Assembly (NCBI GenBank): GCA_029820295.1
Contig: JALGVA010000022.1
Coordinates: 1 to 45,020 of the forward strand
Origin: Candidatus Zipacnadia bacterium
GTDB lineage: Bacteria; Armatimonadota; Zipacnadia; Zipacnadales; UBA5352
Direction: 5' to 3'
Length of the DNA: 45,020 nucleotides
Shown: in pieces, positions 24,462-26,334 of the stretch
How positions within the stretch are numbered: position 1 is the first letter of the stretch
Layout: every line of letters begins with the position of its first letter
Position numbers and translations under genes: made by a program
Notes under the pieces: model-generated
What the model saw: the letters and a program-made list of their open reading frames with translations, nothing else
What the model was told of the DNA's origin: nothing
Databases searched by the model: none

Positions 24462-25169
24462 ATGGCCAGAACGGGCAGCAGGCGCTACGAAGAGGCGCGG
24501 GAGAAGGTTGAGCCCGAGCAATACTATACGCTCGACGAGGCCCTGGAACTGATCAAGGAGACGGCCACCGCCGATTTCGACGAGACGGTGGACTGCGCCA
24601 TCAAGCTCGGCGTGACGCCGGGCAAGGGCGATCAGAACGTGCGCGGCACTGTAGTGCTGCCGCACGGCACGGGCAAGGTGCCGCGCGTGGCGGTGTTCGC
24701 CGAGGGCGAGGCGGTGCGCGAGGCGGAGGCCGCGGGCGCCGACCGCGTGGGCGCCGAGGACCTGGTGCAGGCCATCCAGGAGGGCTGGAGCGACTTCGAC
24801 ATCCTGGTAGCGCAGCCGCAGATGATGCGCGTGGTGGGCCCGCTGGGCAAGCAGCTCGGGCCACGCATGCCCTCGAAGAAGGCAGGCAACATCACCGATG
24901 ACGTGGCCGCCGCGGTGAAGTCGCTCAAGAGCGGCCGCGTGGAGTTCAAGATGGACCGCGGCGCGGTGCTGCACGTGCCGCTCGGGCGCGTGTCGTTCAG
25001 CACCGAGCAGCTTCGCGACAACTTCAACACCCTGATCTCGGCGGTGCAGGCGGCGCGTCCGGCATCCGCCACCGGCCGGTTCATCCGCAGCATCACGCTG
25101 TCGGCGACCATGGGCCCGGGGATCAAGATCGACCTGTCCGACATCACAAGGCGGCGCGCCGTCGCCTGA
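24462..25169 (+). CDS. rplA: 50S ribosomal protein L1
   Basis: 235 aa, normal length for the family. Signature segments: VDCAIKLGVTPGKGDQNVRG, PHGTGK, PLGKQLGPRMPSKKAG and TLSATMGPGIKID. L1 binds 23S rRNA at the mobile L1 stalk and often represses its own operon. GAGGTGA precedes ATG 24462. Gene order rplK-rplA-leader-rplJ-rplL is canonical. Confidence 0.97.
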   Translation: MARTGSRRYEEAREKVEPEQYYTLDEALELIKETATADFDETVDCAIKLGVTPGKGDQNVRGTVVLPHGTGKVPRVAVFAEGEAVREAEAAGADRVGAEDLVQAIQEGWSDFDILVAQPQMMRVVGPLGKQLGPRMPSKKAGNITDDVAAAVKSLKSGRVEFKMDRGAVLHVPLGRVSFSTEQLRDNFNTLISAVQAARPASATGRFIRSITLSATMGPGIKIDLSDITRRRAVA

Positions 25170-25195: not shown

Positions 25196-25345
25196 TCCAG
25201 GCTCAAGACAGCCGGTGCCCCGTGCGACAAGGGGCGTAATGGAGCCCTGCGCTCCGCCTGCCGAGGCCAGGACGCACCCGACCACGAAGCGGGTCTTCGT
25301 GAGTGCACGGGAGCGCCTGCCCTGGGCGCTCCCCTTTTGCATTCA
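25196..25345 (+). promoter_or_regulatory. Ribosomal protein L10 leader RNA
   Basis: The 200-base gap between rplA and rplJ contains the conserved L10-leader elements: AAGACAGCCGGTGCC near 25205, GCGTAATGGAGCC, and CCTGCCGAGG at 25257-25266. It is followed by a terminator-like hairpin. In known cases L10(L12)n binds the kink-turn of this RNA and represses or attenuates rplJL. Confidence 0.85.
25309..25338 (+). terminator. Attenuator hairpin within the L10 leader
   Basis: GGGAGCGCC (25309-25317) pairs perfectly with GGCGCTCCC (25325-25333) across a seven-base loop and is followed by C and four T. This is a Rho-independent terminator shape just before the rplJ SD, consistent with transcription attenuation. 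Confidence 0.75.
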
Positions 25346-25376
25346 GGCGCCGCTGCGTGGGAGGAGGTGAAGTGCG

Positions 25377-25907
25377 ATTCCCGCAAAGGCGAAGCAAGAG
25401 GCCGTCCGGGAGATGCGCGAACGCCTGCAGGCCGCGAGCAGCGTCTACCTGACGTCGTTCCAGGGCCTGACGGTGTCCGAGGCCAACGAGCTGCGCGGCC
25501 GGCTCATCGAGGCCGGCGGCTCGATGCAGGTGGTGAAGAACCGCCTGCTGATGATCGCCCTGCAGGGCACCGACTACGAGTCGCTGACCGACCAGCTCAC
25601 GGGGCCCAACGCCGTCACGTACTGCGGCGAGGACATGATCGCGCCGCTCAAGGTGCTGGCGGAGTTCGCCGCCGACCACGGTCAGCCGCCGGTGAAGGCC
25701 GCGGTGGTGGAGGGCAACCTGCTGTCGGCGCAGCAGATCGAGCGGCTATCGAAGGTGCCGGCGCGCGAGCAGCTCATCGCCGAGGTCGTCGGCTCGTTCG
25801 CCGGGCCGGTCAACGACCTGGTGTACACGCTCAACGCGCTGGTGTCGGATCTGGTGTACACGCTGCAGGCCATCGTCGATGAGCGGGGCGAGGCCGAGGC
25901 CGCCTGA
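25377..25907 (+). CDS. rplJ: 50S ribosomal protein L10, apparent ATT start
   Basis: 176 aa if translation begins at ATT 25377. The codons from 25377 read [20 protein letters not shown], which aligns with the normal N-terminus of L10, so the first ATG in frame (25413) would remove twelve conserved residues. A strong SD (GGAGGAGGTGA, 25360-25370) ends six bases before the ATT, whereas ATG 25413 lies over 40 bases away. A stop at 25368 rules out a longer frame. GTG at 25372 is out of frame by one base. The body is typical ([37 protein letters not shown]). L10 carries the L12 stalk. Confidence 0.93.
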
Positions 25908-25956: not shown

Positions 25957-26334
25957 GTGACAGTTGACGAGATCATTGAAGCGGTAGACAAGCTCACGGT
26001 CCTGGAGCTGGTCGAACTCAAGGACAAGCTGCAGGAGAAGTACGGCGTGTCGGCGGCGGCTCCCGTGGCCGTGGCCGCGGCCGGTGGCGAGGCCGCCGCG
26101 GCGGCCGAGGAGGAGCAGACGGAGTTCGACGTGGTCATCGCCGACGCCGGCGCGGAGAAGATCAAGGTCATCAAGGCCGTGCGCGAGGTCTCGACGTCGC
26201 TGGGTCTCAAGGAGGCCAAGGAGCTGGTGGAGTCCGCCCCCGATGCCGTGGTGGCCGAGCAGGTCGCCAAGGAGGAGGCCGAGGCCATGAAGGCGAAATT
26301 GGAGGAGGCCGGCGCGAAGGTGGAGCTGAGGTAG
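25957..26334 (+). CDS. rplL: 50S ribosomal protein L7/L12
   Basis: 125 aa from GTG 25957, preceded by GGAAG at seven bases. The N-terminal dimerisation domain ([20 protein letters not shown]), an Ala/Val hinge ([18 protein letters not shown]) and the C-terminal domain ([36 protein letters not shown]) are all present. It recruits translational GTPases. Upstream ATGs in frame belong to the rplJ 3' region and lack an SD. Confidence 0.96.

Follow-up and report, generated by a model that had tools for sequence, protein, structure and literature searches.

A predicted AUU start codon of the ribosomal protein L10 gene in one family of Candidatus Zipacnadia bacteria

The gene for ribosomal protein L10 (rplJ) of Candidatus Zipacnadia bacterium very probably begins at an AUU codon at position 25377, a reading drawn from comparison of its start region with those of related genomes. 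ATT occupies the same rplJ codon in eight of nine family genomes (the one described here and seven of eight others), the ninth, G008, having ATG at this codon. Few genes are known to start with AUU, infC and low-abundance regulators making up most of them, and a limited search of open papers found no report of a conserved AUU start on a core ribosomal protein. The puzzle is that an abundant protein, required once per ribosome, should be made from such a weak codon.

Location and structure of rplJ

The window is the whole stretch of DNA that was analysed, 45,020 nucleotides of contig JALGVA010000022.1, taken from a fragmented assembly of 331 contigs (GCA_029820295.1). Gene names in the window were assigned from the translations of open reading frames and from the L10 profile match, and the gene order on the plus strand is tuf, secE, nusG, rplK, rplA, rplJ and rplL. 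Assignment of rplJ to L10 follows from a match to profile PF00466 above the cut-off and from the rplK-rplA-rplJ-rplL gene order, with rplA and rplL as its neighbours, and a profile search of the genome returned a single L10 gene. The features of the region are as follows.

24462 to 25169, plus strand: rplA (L1), the upstream gene, with a canonical ATG start
25206 to 25266, plus strand: L10-leader-like RNA, with AGACAGCCGGTG (25206) and CCTGCCGAGG (25257) and two short helices between them
25309 to 25338, plus strand: GC-rich terminator-like hairpin, GGGAGCGCC...GGCGCTCCC followed by TTTT, kept in the family with some covariation
25363 to 25370, plus strand: extended Shine-Dalgarno sequence GGAGGTGA, followed by 6 nt and the start codon in 9/9 family genomes
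25377 to 25379, plus strand: predicted rplJ AUU start codon, ATT in 8/9 and ATG in 1/9 family genomes
25377 to 25907, plus strand: rplJ (ribosomal protein L10), 176 aa counted from the AUU, PF00466 match with an E-value of 1.1e-24
25957 to 26334, plus strand: rplL (L7/L12), the downstream partner, with a canonical GTG start

Positions 25360 to 25385 of the window read GGAGGAGGTGAAGTGCGATTCCCGCA, and the sequence directly 5' of rplJ is GGAGGAGGTGAAGTGCGATTCCCGCAAAGG. The rplJ frame runs TGA (25368-25370), AGT, GCG, ATT (25377), CCC, GCA, AAG; the TGA sits inside the Shine-Dalgarno sequence, 9 nt upstream of the ATT, and so excludes a start farther upstream, and neither AGT nor GCG is a start codon. 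The frame thus bears out the original prediction that rplJ has no canonical start at its expected N-terminus, no ATG, GTG or TTG being possible there. Read from the ATT, which lies 6 nt beyond the end of the Shine-Dalgarno sequence, the gene comprises 176 codons and ends at the TGA at 25905-25907, and its product matches L10 from the first residues. A GTG at 25372-25374 is out of the rplJ frame and 5 nt from the ATT. The first in-frame ATG is at 25413 (codon 13), where a standard ORF finder starts the gene, giving a protein of 164 aa with 12 residues lost; standard annotation will shorten L10 by these 12 residues throughout the family.

Evidence for initiation at the ATT codon

The family set comprised ten genomes, nine of them with rplJ, and the L10 proteins of the family members are 54-72 % identical to that of the window. 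This divergence implies that the AUU trait is old, and the occurrence of the same ATT in eight separate assemblies at such protein identities makes a shared sequencing error not credible. The ATT was evidently kept as a start codon and does not behave as an internal isoleucine codon, since internal isoleucine codons of the family rplJ genes are 89 % ATC (47 ATC, 3 ATT and 3 ATA) and about half of the third positions in the codons adjoining the ATT differ between genome pairs. The ATG found at the same codon in G008 likewise marks the site as a start.

The original prediction had offered two explanations, a rare ATT start or a base missing from the assembly after GTG 25372, and had suggested comparing relatives for an extra base that would bring this GTG into frame. 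That comparison was made and favors the ATT start, which seven relatives share at the same codon. The GTG lies close to the frame and near the Shine-Dalgarno sequence, and the assembly of 331 contigs is fragmented, but none of the eight separately assembled family relatives has either the extra base or the GTG. Spacing also argues against it. With the Shine-Dalgarno distance taken from the first base of the core to the start codon, 88 canonical family starts served as reference and fall at 11-19; GTG 25372 would be only 9 nt from the start of the core, outside this range, and the ATT is at 14. A missing base therefore has a negligible probability. As a distance of 14 is ordinary, the idea that the AUU start uses a special spacing was rejected.

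Translation from ATG 25413, yielding an L10 shorter by 12 residues, is very improbable. This codon is the one chosen by ORF finders, and eight of the nine family genomes have ATG at codon 13 and the ninth GTG, where sister families mostly encode Leu or Val; however, no conserved Shine-Dalgarno sequence stands at the right distance from it, the conserved one lying 6 nt before the ATT position in all nine. Codons 2-12 are moreover constrained as coding sequence and encode residues that match the N-terminal end of L10 in relatives whose gene starts with ATG. Across the family their pN/pS is 0.379, like the 0.388 of codons 13-40, which indicates that they are translated. A short form of L10 is possible.

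A third alternative, also improbable though somewhat less so, holds that base pairing between AUUCC and the GGAG of the Shine-Dalgarno sequence, in a small hairpin controlling translation, is what preserves the T of the AUU. The family consensus fold does pair GGAG with UUCC, but the pairs are almost invariant, so that covariation is uninformative, and the structure would close with 4-5 weak pairs, its loop containing the remainder of the Shine-Dalgarno sequence; G008 also breaks the A-U pair.

Initiation at the AUU is by far the most probable reading. No upstream in-frame canonical start is present in the window or in five of the seven other family members with ATT. The remaining two have an in-frame codon two codons before the ATT and directly after GGAGGTGA, GTG in G004 (locus L006) and ATG in G007 (locus L008). 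Each has a Shine-Dalgarno distance of 8, a spacing unseen among the 88 canonical starts, and minor use of these codons as rplJ starts is possible.

Distribution in the family and phylum

ATT was found at the aligned rplJ start in none of about 35 other genomes of the same class and about 63 other genomes of the phylum, where rplJ starts with ATG, GTG or TTG or has an N-terminal extension to a canonical codon. This absence points to the ATT start as a derived, family-specific trait. In a tree built from L1, L10 and L12 the family is monophyletic; its deepest branch carries ATT, and G008 falls among the inner branches. Support within the family is low (mostly 28-72), and the split from other families is firm (94-100). 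This arrangement would correspond to one gain of ATT at the family root and one reversion to ATG, in G008. Saccharibacteria and other bacteria returned by a wider contig scan were set aside as irrelevant, the aligned isoleucine being internal there and following ATG-GCN or GTG-GCT.

Start codons of other genes

Starts were surveyed in alignments of about 35 ribosomal and translation genes of the family, taken from the S10-spc-alpha, rplKAJL and infC regions. All start with ATG, GTG or TTG except infC, which has ATA in 10/10 genomes, and rplJ; rplL has ATG or GTG in 9/9. Two automatic non-canonical calls were taken as internal codons and not as starts: in one, probably EF-G, the frame continues far upstream of a CTG; the other is an ATC in rplK, the surveyed loci not reaching the start of that gene. 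A general loss of start stringency is accordingly not supported, the other surveyed ribosomal genes being canonical.

The analogy with infC drawn in the original prediction is apt, given the ATA start of that gene throughout the family. An ATA or ATC start is expected for infC, a gene under IF3 autoregulation. The family infC layout, GGGAGTGA N6 ATA, parallels the GGAGGTGA N6 ATT of rplJ. Across most of the order, the infC start (loci L042-L062) is ATA or ATC, and a Shine-Dalgarno sequence ending in GTGA typically precedes it by six bases; the f5 genomes seem to differ.

Leader RNA between rplA and rplJ

The leader between rplA and rplJ presumably resembles the known L10 leader motif. Its AGACAGCCGGTG and CCTGCCGAGG motifs are conserved in 9/9 family genomes, and the U-run after the GGGAGCGCC/GGCGCTCCC hairpin is weak in several members. 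Most sister families have an analogous hairpin before rplJ, and some of them also have the leader motif. No Rfam 15 model, the L10 leader included, matched the leader at the gathering threshold or at E-values up to 1, and positions 25206-25338 of the window may represent a lineage-specific variant of the L10 leader.

Initiator tRNA and initiation apparatus

A pattern search of the family for an initiator anticodon arm with three G-C pairs (3GC) returned no tRNA match. The initiator tRNA of the source genome was located at G000:C146:5740-5813 (locus L195) on the minus strand, with the anticodon stem CAAGG/CCTTG, in which pair 29:41 is A-U, so that the arm is AU/GC/GC instead of 3GC. The same A-U pair is present in every member of the order in which an initiator tRNA was found, and additionally in G042 (f8), f14 and G065 (f27); G-C stands at 29:41 in all other phylum genomes with an initiator-tRNA match. 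According to PMC7949028, the 3GC feature is highly conserved across all domains, and PMC10568206 gives mycoplasmas as known exceptions. A direct causation of the ATT start by the initiator-tRNA change was rejected, because the change is order-wide and the ATT is confined to one family; f14, too, has the AU/GC/GC tRNA yet starts rplJ with ATG. The altered tRNA may instead be a permissive background for an AUU start. A search with an any-anticodon pattern revealed no special initiator tRNA carrying a different anticodon in the family, and of the tRNAs read in the source genome one is a CAU initiator.

IF3 retains R99, K110 and R131, the SKR tail of uS9 is unchanged in five members, and the 16S P-site stretch CATGAAG is normal in two members; IF3 and uS9 co-changes of the mycoplasma kind are thus absent. 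With these IF3 residues and the uS9 tail intact, normal discrimination by IF3 against AUU is to be expected; the atypical initiator tRNA might change how sensitive initiation in this lineage is to IF3.

Proposed mechanism and significance

It is likely that AUU initiation limits L10 synthesis and confers sensitivity to IF3, in addition to autoregulation through the leader. The full-length Shine-Dalgarno sequence GGAGGUGA would position the AUU at 25377, and the usual initiator tRNA with anticodon CAU would read it. As IF3 destabilises 30S complexes on codons other than AUG, GUG and UUG, the AUU would cap L10 initiation, which would fall at high and rise at low concentrations of free IF3. IF3, whose own gene is AUA-started, would thereby influence how much of the 50S stalk base is made, and perhaps the proportion of stalk base to L12; this control would act together with L10 autoregulation via the leader RNA and hairpin. 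Repression of non-canonical starts by IF3 is established for infC and for Streptomyces sigR (PMC5472188), and by analogy with other bacteria IF3 probably controls rplJ. The original prediction had suggested that an AUU start could add autoregulation; control at the start codon fits the present reading, with IF3 acting in trans, whereas self-control by L10 is more likely to be carried by the upstream leader RNA than by the AUU.

Several observations weigh against this reading. In Staphylococcus aureus, AUU or AUA starts behind an extended Shine-Dalgarno sequence reach about 10 % of the expression obtained with AUG when the medium is poor (PMC13009471), and for a protein needed once per ribosome such a start seems costly. 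The ATG of G008 means that AUU is not indispensable, and G004 and G007 have their upstream GTG and ATG, badly spaced though these are.

A somewhat unlikely alternative is that the AUU start is real and involves no sensing of IF3, serving only to tune down L10 (for example the L10:L12 ratio) or being tolerated drift offset by the strong Shine-Dalgarno sequence and an initiation apparatus relaxed by the AU/GC/GC initiator tRNA. Consistent with it are the ATG or GTG kept by the adjoining rplL, the completeness of GGAGGTGA as a Shine-Dalgarno sequence, the one member with ATG, and the order-wide AU/GC/GC tRNA, a feature reported with relaxed initiation in mycoplasmas (cited in PMC10568206). Against it, the other surveyed ribosomal genes have not drifted to non-canonical codons, ATT has persisted across deep divergence, ATG, GTG or TTG is retained in sister families that have this initiator tRNA, and neither IF3 nor uS9 has changes of the mycoplasma type.

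The preferred reading, an AUU start sensitive to IF3, can be extended, tentatively and with less than even confidence, to a circuit in which AUU-started rplJ and AUA-started infC couple 50S stalk production to the balance of IF3 and 30S subunits, the AU/GC/GC tRNA perhaps making such starts affordable. If IF3 does control rplJ, ribosomal stalk synthesis depends on an initiation factor. The family also offers a natural case in which to study how start-codon stringency evolves alongside the anticodon stem of the initiator tRNA.

Comparison with known systems

The leader between rplA and rplJ presumably resembles known L10 leaders in its AGACAGC..GGTG / CCTGCCGAGG motif and in the hairpin farther downstream, but differs from the described L10 leader in having no Rfam match even at an E-value of 1. 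The AU/GC/GC and AU/GC/GU initiator tRNAs of Mycoplasma (Ayyub 2018, as cited in PMC10568206) share the A-U pair at 29:41 with the order, whereas in the present case IF3 R131 and the uS9 SKR tail are unchanged, in a large genome rich in G+C.

Among genes with comparable starts, Escherichia coli pcnB has an AUU that limits expression, as proposed for rplJ (cited in PMC13009471), but encodes a low-abundance poly(A) polymerase and not a stoichiometric ribosomal protein. Staphylococcus cvfC1 (AUU) and ccpN (AUA) combine a conserved AUH start with an extended Shine-Dalgarno sequence, as rplJ does (PMC13009471); they are not ribosomal protein genes, and were found by ribosome profiling and reporter-tested, whereas the rplJ start is predicted from sequence comparison. 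Streptomyces sigR (PMC5472188) has a conserved non-canonical start and a AGGAGGTG Shine-Dalgarno sequence and is an IF3 target besides infC, but encodes a sigma factor and uses GTC. A further parallel is infC with its AUU, AUA or AUC start in E. coli, Bacillus subtilis, Streptomyces and S. aureus, like rplJ a translation gene with a conserved isoleucine-type start and a strong Shine-Dalgarno sequence; in contrast to infC autoregulation, rplJ encodes a large-subunit ribosomal protein, IF3 would act on it in trans, and the start belongs to one family only.
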